The position numbers were made by a program, and so were the translations under genes. A stretch of DNA of 37,317 bases, taken from NCBI GenBank assembly GCA_005800465.1, contig SYFI01000030.1:1-37317 (forward strand), written 5' to 3'. Origin of the DNA: Actinomycetota bacterium. Its GTDB lineage: Bacteria; Actinomycetota; Thermoleophilia; Miltoncostaeales; Miltoncostaeaceae. The notes under the pieces are model-generated. The model made no database searches. It had not been told where the DNA came from and saw only the letters and a program-made list of their open reading frames with translations. Of the stretch, positions 300 through 13,013 are shown one piece after another. Each line of letters starts with the position of its first letter. Positions within the stretch are counted from its first letter, which is position 1.

Positions 300-1487
300 G
301 TGGTGGTGAGCATGGCCACGAATGCCGTTCAGGAGACCGCGGAAGCGCGGAAGAAGTTGATCATTGCCGCGTTCTCGGAGGAACTCGATCCACTGAACGA
401 ACGCTCGTCGGCTCGCGTGCTCGCCGACATGATCAAGTCTGGCGAGCCCCGGCCGATCCTTACGAGCGGCGACATCGACGGCCTCCTGTCGGCCGCGATG
501 CTGTCGTCTGTCTCGGCGCGCGTCGGCTCGACGGACGGACGGTGGGAGGTCGTTGCGATCACCCTCTCGACGCCTGAGGGTCAGGCGATCCTGACGCACC
601 CTGCGGTCGCGGCCGAGCGGCCGCCCAACATCTTCGGCGTCGATGTGTTCTCAACCGAGTTCGACAATGTGAGCAACCACATCGTCCTCTTTGGCGACCG
701 CCGCCTCTCCGTTGATCAAGTCCGGGAGGCGTTCGAGGACTGGGACGCCGCGGTTCGCGCCGCCGCCGCTAGCCCCGACCGGTTGATCGCGGACCCGAAC
801 CTCTGGGCCGAGATCTACGCCTCACGCAATGACGGCGCCTATCCACACGGCGCCCCTTACAAGTATCCGTTGGGCACTGCGCAGATCCTGCTGGCGCTCC
901 TTGAAGCGGGGGAGGTAGCGCCGCGCTTCTTTGACGGCCACTACCTGCCCTGGCTCTTGGCGAACTGCGATGGCGGTGTCGCCTCCTACACCAGCAAATA
1001 CTTCCCCAATGTGAGCCTTTGGTGGTCCTTGATGGCCGGGGCCGTAGGCCCCGGCTCGCTCACGCAGATGATCTATGAGCGTGTGCGAACCATGCTGCCC
1101 CACGACTTCTCGAACGCGGTCCATCAACTGAGCCGCGAGCAGTCAGCGCAGAGCCGGGCTCACCACTTGGACGACACATGGAACATCACGCCAAAGACCG
1201 CGGTTGCCATGGCCACGGTCTTTGACCTGATCGAACAGCTGACTGGTTGGGGCGACCCTGTTCGCGATGGCACAGCGGGCATAGTCGATTGGGTGCTCAT
1301 TCCCGAAACCGACGGCATCAAGGTTCCGCTCGCGCGCGGGAAGATGGTGGCGGAGGCGACTGCCAGCGGCATGACCCTGGCCGATGTCGCGAACTCGATC
1401 CGACAGGCGGTGAGCGGGGCGACGAACGCCAACTTCTACATGGGCGGTCAGAGCGGTGATCGCTTCAACTGGTTCGGGGGTTGGTAG
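300..1487 (+). CDS. Hypothetical protein, possible divergent DHH-family phosphoesterase; divergent from the methyltransferase
   Basis: 395-aa ORF (GTG 300 or ATG 312). Motif-like stretches ILTSGDIDGLLSAAML, IFGVDVFSTEFDNVSNHIVLFGD and LANCDGGVAS resemble the order of DHH motifs (DxDGxxS, lone D, DHH-like, DG). ORF is solid; family is tentative. Confidence 0.75.
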   Translation: MVVSMATNAVQETAEARKKLIIAAFSEELDPLNERSSARVLADMIKSGEPRPILTSGDIDGLLSAAMLSSVSARVGSTDGRWEVVAITLSTPEGQAILTHPAVAAERPPNIFGVDVFSTEFDNVSNHIVLFGDRRLSVDQVREAFEDWDAAVRAAAASPDRLIADPNLWAEIYASRNDGAYPHGAPYKYPLGTAQILLALLEAGEVAPRFFDGHYLPWLLANCDGGVASYTSKYFPNVSLWWSLMAGAVGPGSLTQMIYERVRTMLPHDFSNAVHQLSREQSAQSRAHHLDDTWNITPKTAVAMATVFDLIEQLTGWGDPVRDGTAGIVDWVLIPETDGIKVPLARGKMVAEATASGMTLADVANSIRQAVSGATNANFYMGGQSGDRFNWFGGW

Positions 1488-1520
1488 GGGGCCATGTCGG
1501 GGGGCCATCAGGAGCCCCAA

Positions 1521-1537: not shown

Positions 1538-1621
1538 CGCCTGCCATCGAGACAAATGCCCTGCTCGCGCTAGGGTTGCCCGAGCCACTCCAAGAAGCTG
1601 GACGAAGACACCAAGACAGAG

Positions 1622-1663
1622 TTCCTAATCCTGGTGTCGGAAGTTCGAATCTTCCCGAGGGCA
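1622..1663 (+). other. 3' half of tRNA-Arg(CCU) without a 5' half (putative attachment-site remnant)
   Basis: Anticodon loop TTCCTAA, 3' anticodon stem TCCTG, variable GTGTC, T-arm GGAAG-TTCGAAT-CTTCC, acceptor CGAGGGC, discriminator A. No D-arm or matching 5' acceptor (GCCCTCG) upstream. Confidence 0.8.
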
Positions 1664-1940
1664 CTTAAGGTTGACCCCGTGTACCCCGGGGTGCAGGAGA
1701 CGGGTCGGCACACCGACGCGACAGCAAAAACCTGTACGGGTCCCGCGGGCGGTATGTGGGGTGCGGTCGGGTGGCTGTCGGCCTCCAACCGCGAGGTTCA
1801 TGAGCCCCGCCTCACTGTCGCACCGAGCGTTGTGGTCACCGGCGTGTGGGAGCTGGCGACCGGTCCAAGGTGGTTCCCGAGCAGAACTTCTGGCTGCAGG
1901 GGATGTCCACGGCGCCGCCCGCCGCGGGCTGAGAATCACC

Positions 1941-4969: not shown

Positions 4970-5494
4970 ATGATGGTGCGCACCCTGCTCACCGTCGCCA
5001 TCCTCATCACCGTCTATGCGGTGATGTTGCCAAGCGACCTCGCCGATGGCAACGTCGGCGTGCGGCTTGTGGGCTCGTTGCTGGTGTTCGCGGGAGTGCT
5101 TGCCCTGCAGGTCGATGCCATCACCCGGGACCCGCTGCCCGACTTGCGAGCCGGGTCGTCCATGATCACCGCCGTCACCCTGCTCGTGCTCATGTTCGCG
5201 ATGACTTACGCCACGCTGGCCAGCGCACACCCCGAGTGGTTCTCGCAGCCCTCGGACAAGTCGTCGGCCATCTATTTCACGGTCACCAATCTGGGAACCG
5301 TGGGATTTAGCAACATCACTGCCGTCAGCCATACGGCACGGTGGGTGGTCACCGCCCAGATTGTCGTCGACCTCACTCTGGTGGTGGCGCTCGGCCGCGT
5401 GCTGTCCAGCGCAGCCCGGGCTGGGCGTGTGCGTGAGGAGCGGCTGGCGTCAGATGCCGGACGCACGACGACCGACGACCACCCTACGACCTGA
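4970..5494 (+). CDS. Two-TM potassium-channel-like membrane protein
   Basis: Hydrophobic helices flank a pore-loop-like IYFTVTNLGTVGFSNI followed by a final TM helix. Confidence 0.7.
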   Translation: MMVRTLLTVAILITVYAVMLPSDLADGNVGVRLVGSLLVFAGVLALQVDAITRDPLPDLRAGSSMITAVTLLVLMFAMTYATLASAHPEWFSQPSDKSSAIYFTVTNLGTVGFSNITAVSHTARWVVTAQIVVDLTLVVALGRVLSSAARAGRVREERLASDAGRTTTDDHPTT

Positions 5495-7976
5495 CGGTGT
5501 TGGAGAGTGCCGAGGTGCTAGTGGGGGTGATGGCCCGCACCTGAACCTTGCCACCGCGTCGCACCGATGCCCGGATGGTGCCATTCGTGTGGGCCATGCG
5601 ACCGATCAGGCGTCCATTGGCAAATACCTGGTAGCCGGTGGCACCCGGGCTCATCGTCATCCGAATTGTGAGGCCGCGGGGGGTCCGCACCACCGAGCGA
5701 AGGCGTGGGGTTGCCAAGATGTCGCGCGAATGGATCCCACCCGGGCGTCTGCTTACCGGTGGCGTGGATGGGTTACCGGGAGTGGGGCTACGTGAGTCAC
5801 CATCACCGCGGGGATTGGGAGTGGGTGTGCTCGGTGTTCCCGGGGCGCCGGGGGTACTCGGGGCACTTGGGGTACTGGGTGCCGGGATGGCCGGGACGAT
5901 CCCGGAGTTGATGTCAAGCAGGAGGTTGGGCGACTGCGGTCCGATACCGGAGATGACGTTCGTCGTGGCCCCTTCCCGGATTGCGGCAACCACGGTGGCC
6001 GGAGTGGCACCGGTGCTGCCCGAGAGCAGAAGCGCCGCGGCACCAGCCACGTGCGGCGATGCCATGGACGTCCCCGACAGCGAGCGTGATCCGGTGGTGG
6101 AGGTGTTGGAGGCCGACACGATTGCTGAACCCGGCGCGAACACATCAACGCACGATCCCCAGTTCGAATAGCTGGCCATCGCATCGTTCGCTGCTGTGGC
6201 CCCCACCGTGATGGCAGAGGGCTCCGCCGCCGGTGACGCGCCGCATGCGTCGGCATTGCTGTTACCTGCCGCGACGGCGAACGTGATGCCATCGGCAACC
6301 GCCGCCCGCACCGCGGCATTCAGCGCCTGCGAGTAGCCGCCGCCCAGGCTCATATTGGCGACAGCGGGCACGTCAGCCTGATGGTTGCTGATTGCCCAGT
6401 CAATGCCGGCAATCACGCCTGACGTACTGCCACTGCCAGCGCAGGAAAGCACTCGAACCGGAATGATGGAGACCGCTGGTGCGACGCCGAAGGTGGCTCC
6501 GCCCACGGTGCCGGCCACGTGCGTTCCGTGGCCGTTGCAGTCGGTTGCTGGATCAACGGCGGGATTGGCGGGGCTGGCGGCGTGCAATGCGTCGAATCCT
6601 GATTGCACCCGGCCACCGAAGTCCACGTGGTCGGCCTGCACGCCGGTGTCAATGATGTAGGCGGCCACCCCTCCGCCGTCGAGCGGTGCGGTGATGCGGC
6701 CGTCCAGCGGAAGCGCGCGCTGATCAATGCGGTCCTGCCCCCACGAGGTGACGGCGCGGTCCTGGGCGGCACCCGATCCCGGGGCCGCCGGAGGTGCTGA
6801 TGGGGGCGCGGGTGCCGGGGCCGACGACGCCATGGTCCACGTGAGCGTGGGCGCACCTGATGTGCCGCCCCAGCCATCAATGGCGAACAAGTACGAAGTG
6901 CCCTCAGTCACTGGAACCACGATCTGGCTCCATGTTGCGGCTCCTGCCTCCGCGTCGTCGTTCTCGGCCAAAGTGGAGAGCCCGGCGACCGTGTTCCCGG
7001 TATACGCGCCAAGCAGCGTGTCGTAGGTGCTGCCACGAGTATCGAGGGTGAGGGTGCCGGTGGCGGGAGCCGTCCAGCGGTACCAGATGGATGCGCTCGC
7101 ACCCGACCCTCCATGCGACGGCTCCCCGGTCTCGCGCGTCGCCTCCACGGTGGATCCGGTGGCGGTGCCCGAACTGCTCAACAGGGATGACGCACTCACA
7201 AACAGGTCGTTCGCCGGCGCCGCTGTGGGCACCGTGAGCGCCCAGGTCAGCGTGGCAGCGCCCCACTGTCCGCCCCATCCGTCAATGGCAATGCCGTATT
7301 TGGCACCTGCAGTGACGGCAAATGAGATGGCACTCGTGAGGCCCCCACCCGAGTCATCGTTCGCCGCCAGCAGCGTGAGCGAGTCAAGGGCGCTTCCGGA
7401 GTACGCGGCAAGCATGGTGTCGAACCCGCTCCCCAGCGTGTTCATGCGCACAGTCCCCGATGACGGAGCGGTCCATGTGAACCACACGGATGCCCGCCCG
7501 GTCGACGAGAAGTGCACGGGCTCGCCGGTCTCGCGCGTGGCCCCGTCGGTGGTGGTGGCGACACTGCCGCTGGTGCCGGTCATCGCCCGGCTGCTGGCAA
7601 AGGCGTCATTCGACGGCGCAGTTGCTGTGCTCATGGGCGGAACGGGTACGCCGGGCGATGCATCGATGCTCATTGGACGGTCGGGCTCCACCAGCAGCAC
7701 ATCGGGGTCACTGTTGAGGCGGGCGATGTCGGCCTTGTCAAGATCGGCGACAAACCCCTTGCCAATGGCCCTGAACGTGTCGCCCACGTCGTTGCCCCGG
7801 CGCTCCTCGGTGCGCACCTTGGCGGTCAGGTTCGCAGCTGGATCGATCATTATGATCTGCGGCGTCGCGGTGTCGGCCGCCGATGCCGCTGCCGTACCCA
7901 GCGCTCCCGCGATCGCGATGCCGCCGAGAAGGGCGACGAGTGCACGCGGAGTACGGAGGGTGGGGAGGGAAGACAT
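5484..7976 (-). CDS. Secreted S8 (subtilisin-like) serine protease with N-terminal prodomain and two PPC-like domains
   Basis: Signal-peptide-like N-terminus; catalytic motifs YIIDTGVQADH, GHGTHVAGTVGG, GTSMASPHVAGAAALL; two repeats with ...ATRETGEP...SxWxxWTAP... Confidence 0.93.
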   Translation of the reverse strand: MSSLPTLRTPRALVALLGGIAIAGALGTAAASAADTATPQIIMIDPAANLTAKVRTEERRGNDVGDTFRAIGKGFVADLDKADIARLNSDPDVLLVEPDRPMSIDASPGVPVPPMSTATAPSNDAFASSRAMTGTSGSVATTTDGATRETGEPVHFSSTGRASVWFTWTAPSSGTVRMNTLGSGFDTMLAAYSGSALDSLTLLAANDDSGGGLTSAISFAVTAGAKYGIAIDGWGGQWGAATLTWALTVPTAAPANDLFVSASSLLSSSGTATGSTVEATRETGEPSHGGSGASASIWYRWTAPATGTLTLDTRGSTYDTLLGAYTGNTVAGLSTLAENDDAEAGAATWSQIVVPVTEGTSYLFAIDGWGGTSGAPTLTWTMASSAPAPAPPSAPPAAPGSGAAQDRAVTSWGQDRIDQRALPLDGRITAPLDGGGVAAYIIDTGVQADHVDFGGRVQSGFDALHAASPANPAVDPATDCNGHGTHVAGTVGGATFGVAPAVSIIPVRVLSCAGSGSTSGVIAGIDWAISNHQADVPAVANMSLGGGYSQALNAAVRAAVADGITFAVAAGNSNADACGASPAAEPSAITVGATAANDAMASYSNWGSCVDVFAPGSAIVSASNTSTTGSRSLSGTSMASPHVAGAAALLLSGSTGATPATVVAAIREGATTNVISGIGPQSPNLLLDINSGIVPAIPAPSTPSAPSTPGAPGTPSTPTPNPRGDGDSRSPTPGNPSTPPVSRRPGGIHSRDILATPRLRSVVRTPRGLTIRMTMSPGATGYQVFANGRLIGRMAHTNGTIRASVRRGGKVQVRAITPTSTSALSNTVRS

Positions 7977-8077: not shown

Positions 8078-11014
8078 CTAGCGGGGGGCGCGCACCATGT
8101 TCGACGCCTGTGATGTGCCCTGGGTAGTGACCATCTTTACCGTGATCTTCGCGCCCTTTCGCACCTTGCGCCTGATCGTGGGCGTGTGCGATGCCGTGGT
8201 CAGCACAAGCTTGCCGTTGACGAACACCCTGATCTTCGCGCCCTTGGGGGCGGTCACCACAATTCGCAGGCCCTTCTTTGTGCGCTTAAGCGACTTGATG
8301 CGGGGGACCTGCAGTGCGGTGACTCCGTTAATCGACTGGCTGTTCTTTTGGGCTGCTGGCATGGGCACCGATGAGGCCGCGGCAAACAGGAGAAGGTTCG
8401 GGGAACCGCCACCCGGGTTGCTCACGACGCCGGGAGTTGCTCCGTCGATGATCCCTTGCCTCACCTGCGCAGGAGTCGCGCCGGGCACGCCCGACAGCAG
8501 CAGGGCAGCCACCCCGGCCGCATGCGGTGCGGCCATCGATGTTCCCGACAGCACCTCGGTTGCCTTGGGATCGCTGCTCCAGGCCGACTCGATGTCCACG
8601 CCTGGGGCAAACACGGTCACGCAAGGGCCGTAGTCAGAGAACGGGGCACGGTCGTCCTGAACATCGGTTGCGCCCACCGAGATGGCGGTTGGAGCGGATG
8701 CGGGCGACATCGTGCATGCGTCGGTGTTGCTGTTTCCAGCGGCCACAGCCATGGTGATGCCATCTGCGGTGGCGGTATCAACGGCACGGTTGAGCGCCGA
8801 TGACGACGGCGTTCCCATGCTCAAGTTGGCGACGGCCGGCGTGCCGGCCACGTGGTTGCTCACCATCCAGTTGATACCCGCGATGACGTCGGACACCGAT
8901 CCGTCGCCGGTGCACCCGAGCACCCGTACGGGTACAACGCGCGCCATGGGCGCCACGCCGTAGTGCCCGCCCGCGATGCTGCCGGCCACGTGCGTGCCGT
9001 GCCCGTTGCAGTCCTCGGTGCCGCTCCCGTCGCCCACGCCATCCAGACCGCCGAGCACACGCCCACCGAACTCCTCATGACTTGCCAGCACGCCGGTGTC
9101 GATGACGTACGCGGTCACGCCGGTGCCGTCAAGTGGCACCGCATACCGGTTGTCGAGGGTTTTCCCGCGCTGGTCCAGGCGGTCAATCCCCCAGTCAAAT
9201 GCCTCGCGGTTCTGCGGCAGACCGGGCCCGGTGACAGGCGCCTGAGTTGAAGGGTCGGTGGTTCCCGGTCCGGTGGGTGCCGGGCCGGGTGCCGGGTCGG
9301 TGGGCAGCGGGGTGATGGGCATGGCGGGCGTCACTGGGGCGCTGGCGGCGGATGCGCTGCCCTGGCCCACGGCATTGGTGGCGCGCACGGTAAACGTGTA
9401 CGCCACCCCATTGGTGAGGCCGGTGATGCCGCAGGTGGTGAGCGCGGTGGTGCAGGTGGTGCGGGGGTTGCCGCCCGATGCCACTGCGGTGTAGTCGGTG
9501 ATGTCAGACCCACCGTTTGAGGTGGGTGCGACCCACAACACCGTGGCGGCACCGTCGCGCGCGATTGCGGTGACGCTCTTCGGGGCGCCAGGCGCGGTGG
9601 GCATGACGAACCCCGATGACGCACCAGACCACTGTGAGGCGCCCTGCGTATTGGTGGCCATCGCCCTGCAGGTATATGTGGCCCCCGGGGTGAGGCTCAC
9701 GATCGGTACCGACGTGTCGGTTGATGTACCGGTGCGTGTGATGCCGCCAGTACTCGACGAGCACGACACGGTGTAGGAGAGGATTGCCGATCCGCCGTCA
9801 GACACCGGGGGGGTCACCGACACGGTCACGGAGGTGCCATTGGGCGCCCCGGCACCGACAGCCAGCGGTGGATCCGGCGCCGTGATGGGTGCCACCGAAA
9901 CAAAGTTCCACCCCAGCGCCACCGATCCGGTCGCCCCATTCGCCCCATCGATGGCGATGCGGTAGGTGGTGTTGGGCGTCACGGTGAACGACATGCCTCT
10001 GCGGGTGCTGCCGAGCGGTGTGGTGTCCGTGGCCAGCACTGGGGTAAGCGCACTTACCGCGGTGCCGGTGTACGCGCCCAGCAGCGTGGCGAACGAACTG
10101 CCGGTGGTGAACAGCGACACCACACCGTGATCGAGTGCGGTCCACGAGTACCACACCGATGCGGCGCCACTGCCGCCGTGGGTCGGCTCTCCGGACTCGC
10201 GACTTGCGAAGGCAGTCGATCCCGCCACGCTGCCCTGAGACCCGGTAATGGCCGTGGCCTGGTCGAAGGTATCGTTCACGGGGGCGGTGGGCGTGAGCAG
10301 CCAGTTGAGTTTCGTGTTACCGCTGGTTCGCCGGTATCCGTCAATGACGATGCGGTATGTCGTGCCTGCGGTCACGTTGACGCTCACGGAACTGGTGAGC
10401 CCGGTACCGAAGTCGTCGTTGGCGCCACCGGGCAGCACGGTGAGTGCTCTCACGGCCGACCCCGTGTAGATGGCGAGCATCGTGTCGTAGTTACTGCCCA
10501 CGGTGGACAGCGACAACGTGCCCGTGTCGGTGGCGGTCCACGAATACCAGATGGAAGACCCGTTGTTACCCCAAACCGACAGCGGCCTGGGCTCGCCGGT
10601 CTCGCGCGTGGCGCTGCGCGTGGTGCCGGTGATGTTGCCGCTTGCCCCGGCAATGCCAGTGGCTGAGGCGAACGAATCGTTGCCCGGCGCAGCGTTGATG
10701 CTCACATGCTGGTCGGGCTCTACGCTGATAACCGACGGGTCGTTACGCAGCCGGGTGATGTCGGCTGGATCCAGGCTGGCCGCGAAGCCATCGATGGCGG
10801 CGGTGTAGACGTCGGTGACCTCGTTGCCGCGCATGGCCTCAGTGACGGCCTTCGCGTTGGCGTTGGCCGTGGGTTTGAGCACCACGATCTGCGGCGTGGG
10901 ATCGGTGGTGGCACCCGATGCCACGCCCGCCGCCAGGCCCATCGCAACGATCGCCGCTCCACCCAGAAGAAGGGCACGGGACAATCCATGAGATGAGGAG
11001 GCACCGAGACGCAT
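8078..11014 (-). CDS. Secreted S8 serine protease paralog with prodomain, two PPC-like and two FN3-like domains
   Basis: Catalytic motifs YVIDTGVLASH, GHGTHVAGSIAGG, GTSMAAPHAAGVAALL; FN3-like PDPPLAVGAGAPNGTSVTVSVTPP and APGAPKSVTAIARDGAATVLWVAP. Confidence 0.93.
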   Translation of the reverse strand: MRLGASSSHGLSRALLLGGAAIVAMGLAAGVASGATTDPTPQIVVLKPTANANAKAVTEAMRGNEVTDVYTAAIDGFAASLDPADITRLRNDPSVISVEPDQHVSINAAPGNDSFASATGIAGASGNITGTTRSATRETGEPRPLSVWGNNGSSIWYSWTATDTGTLSLSTVGSNYDTMLAIYTGSAVRALTVLPGGANDDFGTGLTSSVSVNVTAGTTYRIVIDGYRRTSGNTKLNWLLTPTAPVNDTFDQATAITGSQGSVAGSTAFASRESGEPTHGGSGAASVWYSWTALDHGVVSLFTTGSSFATLLGAYTGTAVSALTPVLATDTTPLGSTRRGMSFTVTPNTTYRIAIDGANGATGSVALGWNFVSVAPITAPDPPLAVGAGAPNGTSVTVSVTPPVSDGGSAILSYTVSCSSSTGGITRTGTSTDTSVPIVSLTPGATYTCRAMATNTQGASQWSGASSGFVMPTAPGAPKSVTAIARDGAATVLWVAPTSNGGSDITDYTAVASGGNPRTTCTTALTTCGITGLTNGVAYTFTVRATNAVGQGSASAASAPVTPAMPITPLPTDPAPGPAPTGPGTTDPSTQAPVTGPGLPQNREAFDWGIDRLDQRGKTLDNRYAVPLDGTGVTAYVIDTGVLASHEEFGGRVLGGLDGVGDGSGTEDCNGHGTHVAGSIAGGHYGVAPMARVVPVRVLGCTGDGSVSDVIAGINWMVSNHVAGTPAVANLSMGTPSSSALNRAVDTATADGITMAVAAGNSNTDACTMSPASAPTAISVGATDVQDDRAPFSDYGPCVTVFAPGVDIESAWSSDPKATEVLSGTSMAAPHAAGVAALLLSGVPGATPAQVRQGIIDGATPGVVSNPGGGSPNLLLFAAASSVPMPAAQKNSQSINGVTALQVPRIKSLKRTKKGLRIVVTAPKGAKIRVFVNGKLVLTTASHTPTIRRKVRKGAKITVKMVTTQGTSQASNMVRAPR

Positions 11015-11903: not shown

Positions 11904-13013
11904 CTACTTCTTCTTCGGCGCAGCCTTTGCAGCGGGCTTGGCAGCAGGCTTCTTCGCGGTCGCCTTCGCTGCAGTCTTGGCCGGTGCCTTTGCAGCAGCG
12001 TTGACCGGCGCCTTCGCAGCCGGCTTGGCAGCAGCCTTCTTGGCAGCAGGCTTGGCCGTTGCCTTTCCAGCAGCGTTGACCGGCGCCTTCACAGCCGGCT
12101 TGGCAGCAGCCTTCTTGGCGGCAGGCTTGGCAGCAGCCGGCTTGGCAGCAGCCTTCTTGGCAGCAGCCTTGGCAGCCGGCTTGGCAGCAGCCTTGGCAGC
12201 CGGCTTGGCAGCGGGCGTCGCAGCAGCCTTCTTGGCGGCAGGCTTGGCAGCGGGCGTCGCAGCAGCCTTGACCGGGGCCTTCGCAGCCGGCTTGGGAGCG
12301 GCCTTTGCAGCCTTCTCTTCAGTGGCTTTCGCAGCAGCCTTCTGCAGGGCAGCCTTGGCCATGGTGGCCGCCGACGGTGGGGTTGACGACAGCGGCGGGC
12401 GCACGGCCGGGCGCATACCGGTGCGGCTCTGCTGGGCGGCAGCGGCACGGGCGGCGGCCGCGGCCTTCGGGTCGGCCTTGGGCGGCGGCTTGGGTGCCAC
12501 ACGCTTGCTGCTCGGCTTGTGCTTAATAACCAGCCTGCCGGCAAGGGCGTCGTCGATCAGCTGGCCGGCGCCCTCCTCGTCCACGCGGCGGGCGTACATC
12601 AGCTCACTCACCAACACGCGACGGGCGCGCTCAAGCATCTGCATCTCACCGGGCGACAGGCGGGCGTCCTGCTGACGGCGCTCGAGGTTGCGCACCACCT
12701 CCGCCAACTCCAGGATGTCGCCGCTTCGCAGCTTCTCCTGGTTGCGCTTGAACCGCTGGTTCCACTGCGCGGGCATCTCGCTGCCCTCGGCAGCGAGCAC
12801 CGACAGCACCTCAGACACCGCACGCTCATTGATAACCGGGCGCAGGCCGGCGGTCTCGGCGTTCTCGGACGGCACCATCACGATCATCGGCGGCTGCAGG
12901 ATCTCAATCGTCAAATACTCGCGCCGCTCACCACGGATCTCGTGAAACTCCTTGGCCAGAACGGTTCCCGCACCGTGGTGCGGGTAGACGACCTTGTCCC
13001 CAACCTCGAACAT
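11904..13013 (-). CDS. carD: CarD-like RNA polymerase-binding transcription factor with long Ala/Lys/Pro-rich H1-like C-terminal tail
   Basis: MFEVGDKVVYPHHGAGTVLAKEFHEIRGERREYLTIEIL... is a CarD/CdnL RNAP-interacting domain; C-terminal ~190 aa are KPAAKKAAAKPAAKAPVNAA-type repeats. Confidence 0.93.
   Translation of the reverse strand: MFEVGDKVVYPHHGAGTVLAKEFHEIRGERREYLTIEILQPPMIVMVPSENAETAGLRPVINERAVSEVLSVLAAEGSEMPAQWNQRFKRNQEKLRSGDILELAEVVRNLERRQQDARLSPGEMQMLERARRVLVSELMYARRVDEEGAGQLIDDALAGRLVIKHKPSSKRVAPKPPPKADPKAAAAARAAAAQQSRTGMRPAVRPPLSSTPPSAATMAKAALQKAAAKATEEKAAKAAPKPAAKAPVKAAATPAAKPAAKKAAATPAAKPAAKAAAKPAAKAAAKKAAAKPAAAKPAAKKAAAKPAVKAPVNAAGKATAKPAAKKAAAKPAAKAPVNAAAKAPAKTAAKATAKKPAAKPAAKAAPKKK
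11926..12350. repeat. Low-complexity tandem-like repeats encoding the H1-like tail
   Basis: Many copies of gcagcaggcttggc/gcagccttcttggc; one block starting ttgaccggcgccttc recurs at 12001 and 12076 (75 bp apart, in frame). Confidence 0.85.

Follow-up and report, generated by a model that had tools for sequence, protein, structure and literature searches.

An orphan tRNA-Arg(CCU) 3' half at the probable distal end of a genomic island in a Thermoleophilia genome

Results

Organization of the window

We analyzed a window of 37,317 nt, which corresponds to an entire contig (C9) of a metagenome-assembled genome (1.47 Mb, 165 contigs, 67% complete) of an aquatic bacterium from a poorly known Thermoleophilia lineage. 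The named relatives of one window gene carried labels that were mostly Thermoleophilia, Miltoncostaeales or actinobacteria. The window was compared with a set of 61 genomes, of which 20, including the genome under study, belong to the same genus; G003 and G004 were the closest relatives.

At its left end, the window carries the N-terminal part of a C5 cytosine DNA methyltransferase gene on the minus strand, cut by the contig end (1-213; PF00145, E = 6.5e-17 over 71 residues), and a divergent plus-strand ORF of 390 aa (315-1487). This ORF had no match in Pfam, NCBIfam, PHROG, PADLOC or the PDB and no convincing relative in viral contigs, genome contigs or 399 genomes of the class, and AlphaFold2 modelling from the single sequence was of no help (pLDDT 36.7). 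Its motif and the methyltransferase neighbour raised the idea of a DHH-like protein or a restriction enzyme, which found no support; from the gene arrangement, a restriction-modification pair is a reasonable guess. Positions 1-1605 had no match in the 19 other genomes of the genus and, within the relatives' tRNA-Arg loci, nothing in 1-1621 matched beyond the tRNA itself. This absence agrees with a preliminary description of the sequence, which took the left-hand DNA for mobile-element cargo, and we assign 1-1621 to the right end of a putative integrated island, inside which the contig starts.

Immediately to the right, on the plus strand, bases 1622-1663 correspond to a tRNA-Arg(CCU) 3' half running from the anticodon loop to the discriminator. 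It consists of the anticodon loop TTCCTAA, the stem strand TCCTG, the variable loop GTGTC, a T arm (GGAAG/TTCGAAT/CTTCC), the acceptor strand CGAGGGC and the discriminator A, so that every part listed in the preliminary description is present. Its statement that no 5' half lies upstream also holds, since positions 1604-1621 form none and a short ACAG at 1616-1619 is the sole match. The span originally given to the element (1604-1663) is too long: 1622-1663 is the orphan element proper and 1604-1621 is island DNA. ARAGORN found zero tRNAs in the whole window, and an Rfam scan of the window gave no matches, as expected for half a tRNA. The fragment is terminal, reaching the 3' end of the tRNA gene, and it breaks at a known crossover subsite, the anticodon loop.

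Alignment to the G003 flank identified positions 1664-1932 (+) as native flank, with about 50 bp of conserved tRNA spacer followed by the 3' end of a decayed gene. This gene is intact directly after the tRNA in G003 and G004, and about 1.2-1.3 kb of it is deleted here. The first intact chromosomal genes to the right of the boundary, both on the plus strand, encode a Phd/YefM antitoxin (2001-2240; PF02604, just below cut-off) and a PIN toxin (2237-2656; PF01850), and they are 91-92% identical in G003 and G004. Further right, two adjacent large minus-strand genes (5484-7976 and 8078-11014) have translations that resemble secreted subtilisin-type proteases. Several other members of the genus have similar DNA downstream of tRNA-Arg, at distances that vary, and this scattered protease-like DNA is consistent with the tRNA-Arg 3' flank being a variable spot.

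An intact tRNA-Arg(CCU) gene on a second contig

A search of the genome with the fragment gave one second place, C47:462-509(-), with a score far above chance (E = 1.6e-13). It belongs to an intact tRNA-Arg(CCT) gene, i.e. tRNA-Arg(CCU), at C47:462-534 (-). An intact copy had been expected outside the window and it does exist there, with a 3' half that matches the fragment at 40 of 42 bases and is not an exact repeat. The two differing bases together make up one T-stem pair, which is G-C in the fragment (GGAAG/CTTCC) and C-G in the C47 gene (GCAAG/CTTGC). The C47 tRNA matches that of G005, a more distant genome, at every base, and differs from those of G003 and G004. Beyond the island end, C47 is 92-94% identical to G003/G004 and about 70-78% to G005, and C9 shows the same distances; C47 is thus of the same lineage as C9 and not a stray contig.

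On the 3' side of the intact tRNA, only 461 bases precede the end of C47, and a comparison of this stretch with the other 19 genus members gave nothing longer than matches of 25-43 bp. In place of the native flank, it carries just inside the boundary a 93-aa gene of the excisionase HTH family (HTH_17; TIGR01764, E = 3.6e-13). No relatives of this gene were found in viral contigs. The start of the next ORF overlaps the excisionase stop, and 22 bases of it are present before the contig breaks. An own-genome search found no contigs overlapping the ends of C9 or C47, leaving the two island ends on separate contigs.

Both junctions are flanked by a short repeat. Two tandem exact copies of GGGGGCCAT, 13 bp apart, lie at 1486-1508 (+), and a matching pair with 14-bp spacing lies at C47:423-446 (-). 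No further exact copy occurs in the 49 kb of C9 and C47, and all four have the same orientation relative to the tRNA. When 3000 random segment pairs were sampled, 7 shared as many 10-mers; since the motif had been noticed before the test, this counts as supporting evidence only. The pairs are likely arm-type binding sites of the integrase.

The empty site in related genomes

The intact tRNA-Arg genes of G003 and G004 contain exactly the 42 bases of the fragment (42/42), and the downstream window genes, at 90-92% identity, follow them without any left-hand window DNA between. Homology to their tRNA flanks begins at the fragment and is continuous from base 1736 at about 90.7-92%. G004 also carries the gene upstream of the C47 tRNA, and a further small insertion separates its tRNA from the flank. 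The proposed comparison with relatives lacking the island thus gave an uninterrupted site, with both flanks joined through one tRNA. With left-hand DNA foreign to the genus and right-hand DNA that follows an intact tRNA in G003 and G004, the initial reading of an integration boundary was borne out.

We also observed a degenerate second tRNA copy in G004 (L046, G004:C13, 9131-9203(-)), 1 kb downstream of the intact tRNA-Arg and called tRNA-Lys CTT by ARAGORN. It is followed by the same TTGACGATTGAC flank, which suggests a local duplication or an older insertion.

Reconstruction of the integration

When the first 31 bases of the C47 tRNA were joined to the window from 1622 onward, the resulting 73-base tRNA was recognised by ARAGORN and identical to those of G003/G004 (73/73). 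For the reciprocal junction, attP, in which the window sequence ending at 1621 is followed by the C47 tRNA 3' half, ARAGORN found no tRNA; what precedes 1622 bears no relation to any tRNA 5' half. Taken together, the 42/42 identity to the relatives, the shared downstream genes and the 73/73 join point to the fragment as the displaced original end of the tRNA gene and not a copy of the resident end, and to the intact C47 gene as a hybrid whose 3' half would be island-derived. The notion of a duplicated 3' end therefore needs correcting: an orphan fragment does lie at the distal end of the island, and it is the displaced original, which differs from the resident end by a compensated T-stem pair. 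The preliminary description would also have counted a different 3' sequence in the intact gene against an insertion; two bases do differ, and the relatives' tRNAs account for the difference.

TTCCTAATCCTGGTGTCG, at 1622-1639 (+), is identical in attL (on C47) and attR and holds the crossover, the first mismatch to the right being at position 1640. The first seven nucleotides of this stretch (1622-1628) are the anticodon loop, where the crossover probably fell. Three crossover subsites have been described, and about half of the islands in the Islander database (PMC4383910) use the anticodon-loop one; the 7-bp loop with its stem resembles the overlap region and core organisation of the lambda attB (review, PMC8371274).

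Overall, we consider with high confidence that a genomic island entered tRNA-Arg(CCU) through site-specific recombination by a tyrosine recombinase and that 1622-1663 marks its distal end, attR. In the scenario that we propose, the attP of the island would have borne a tRNA 3' half (TTCCTAA...CGAGGGCA), and the crossover would have occurred within the anticodon loop or directly next to it. Through integration, the host 5' half would have acquired the attP 3' half, which made the intact C47 tRNA beside the excisionase end of the island (attL), while the native 3' half of the host would have been moved to the far end, now at 1622-1663 (attR). The integrase gene would follow the excisionase gene, in the assembly gap, and the island may have come from a host with the C-G version of the T-stem pair in its tRNA.

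Search for the integrase

No integrase match was obtained on C9 or C47, both of which break off within the island, and for this reason the island integrase was not recovered. Four integrase-type matches were found in the genome, all away from these two contigs. As candidates for the island's integrase we rejected a XerC/XerD-like tandem pair amid housekeeping genes on C33, a match among housekeeping genes on C39 and a C-terminal fragment near a tRNA-Val on C163. In G004:C2, an HTH gene comparable to that of C47 is followed by a tyrosine integrase, an arrangement that favours an integrase identity for the cut ORF of C47 without proving it. On C163 (L040, G000:C163), the tRNA-Val(GAC) gene lies at 1522-1595 and the tyrosine-integrase fragment at 2414-2848, 0.8 kb downstream, and this pair may be what is left of a second island in the genome.

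Other islands and fragments at tRNA-Arg(CCU)

A complete island at tRNA-Arg(CCU) was found on one contig in G034, of the same family (L055:1597-13664, 12 kb). Its intact tRNA-Arg(CCU) lies at L055:1597-1669, a tyrosine integrase starts at 1734, 65 bp downstream (PF00589, 1.2e-25; PHROG 1), and a 3' fragment at L055:13623-13664 starts at the same TTCCTAA. Similar tRNA-Arg 3' fragments are also present in G025 and G029, so that tRNA-Arg(CCU) is a recurrent target in the family.

In G025 (L058, G025:C96), two such fragments lie 6.2 kb apart on the minus strand (5993-6032 and 12193-12232), with an ORF between them in which an integrase-like N-terminus is fused to a Mutator-family transposase; a tandem island broken by a transposon is possible. 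Orphan tRNA-Arg(CCU) 5' halves that end at or just past the anticodon loop were observed in L057 (G009:C48, 9849-9890, +) and L041 (G037:C53, 3279-3242, -). The latter lies 3 kb upstream of the intact tRNA, and the interval holds apparent genes for a thiamine-pyrophosphate enzyme and a short-chain dehydrogenase, with no evident integrase. This layout could reflect a rarer 5'-fragment type of island or a rearrangement.

Discussion

We considered whether the fragment could be a decayed tandem duplicate of tRNA-Arg that has lost its 5' half without any mobile element. The degenerate second tRNA copy in G004 indicates that local tRNA duplication does happen at this locus. However, the 42 bases of the fragment show no decay and the break falls exactly at the anticodon loop. 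Moreover, the DNA on the left is foreign to the genus and that on the right is the flank found downstream of the tRNA in the relatives, and the resident tRNA has an excisionase gene in place of its native 3' flank. We regard such a duplication as exceedingly improbable. It is also very improbable that C47 derives from another strain or species in the bin, with the tRNA difference and the split as artefacts of assembly or binning. Bins of metagenome-assembled genomes can mix strains, and the C47 tRNA does match G005 and not G003/G004; the rest of the contig, however, stands at the same distances from these genomes as C9, and the reported contamination is 0.03%. Whatever the origin of C47, the window alone joins foreign DNA to a native tRNA 3' half.

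Insertion of an island into a tRNA gene with replacement of its 3' half is a well-known route, of which this is an unusually clean case. The displaced half keeps the ancestral allele and shows that integration changed the host tRNA-Arg gene by one compensated T-stem pair. The analysis defines the island boundary exactly, with independent checks, in a Thermoleophilia lineage about which little is known, and it divides contig C9 into island DNA (1-1621) and native chromosome (1622 onward). The island is of the ordinary tRNA-targeted kind, and the compensated 3'-half replacement is an uncommon detail. A small, non-exhaustive search of the literature found the general principle and no paper centred on compensated replacement, and we claim no novelty. 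A broader proposal is that islands at tRNA-Arg(CCU) swap the host 3' half for a compensated allele from another lineage and so spread part of the tRNA diversity of the genus, as opposed to mutation in place; we hold it to be rather unlikely.

Genomic islands targeting tRNA genes are catalogued in the Islander database (PMC4383910), with the sublocation scheme of Williams 2002. As in those islands, the tRNA gene is split here, an intact tRNA would be regenerated by island DNA and the displaced 3' fragment lies at the far end; the crossover maps to the anticodon-loop subsite A, an intact tDNA of the same isoacceptor is present in the same genome and the interval DNA is foreign to the lineage. 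In contrast to them, no integrase was recovered, the interval spans an assembly gap and one compensated T-stem pair distinguishes the regenerated half from the displaced one. The HTH_17/excisionase-family gene just inside the tRNA end, with the next ORF overlapping its stop, resembles excisionase-integrase modules, although this next ORF, of putative integrase identity, has 22 bases only, unlike in full modules. The G034 island shares with this one the tRNA, the TTCCTAA crossover position and the distal 3' fragment. In G034, a tyrosine integrase directly follows the intact tRNA. The G034 island differs in being complete on one contig and in its cargo, which includes a second integrase and a Schlafen/AlbA_2-domain protein, and its fragment and intact 3' halves are identical, unlike the two halves described here.
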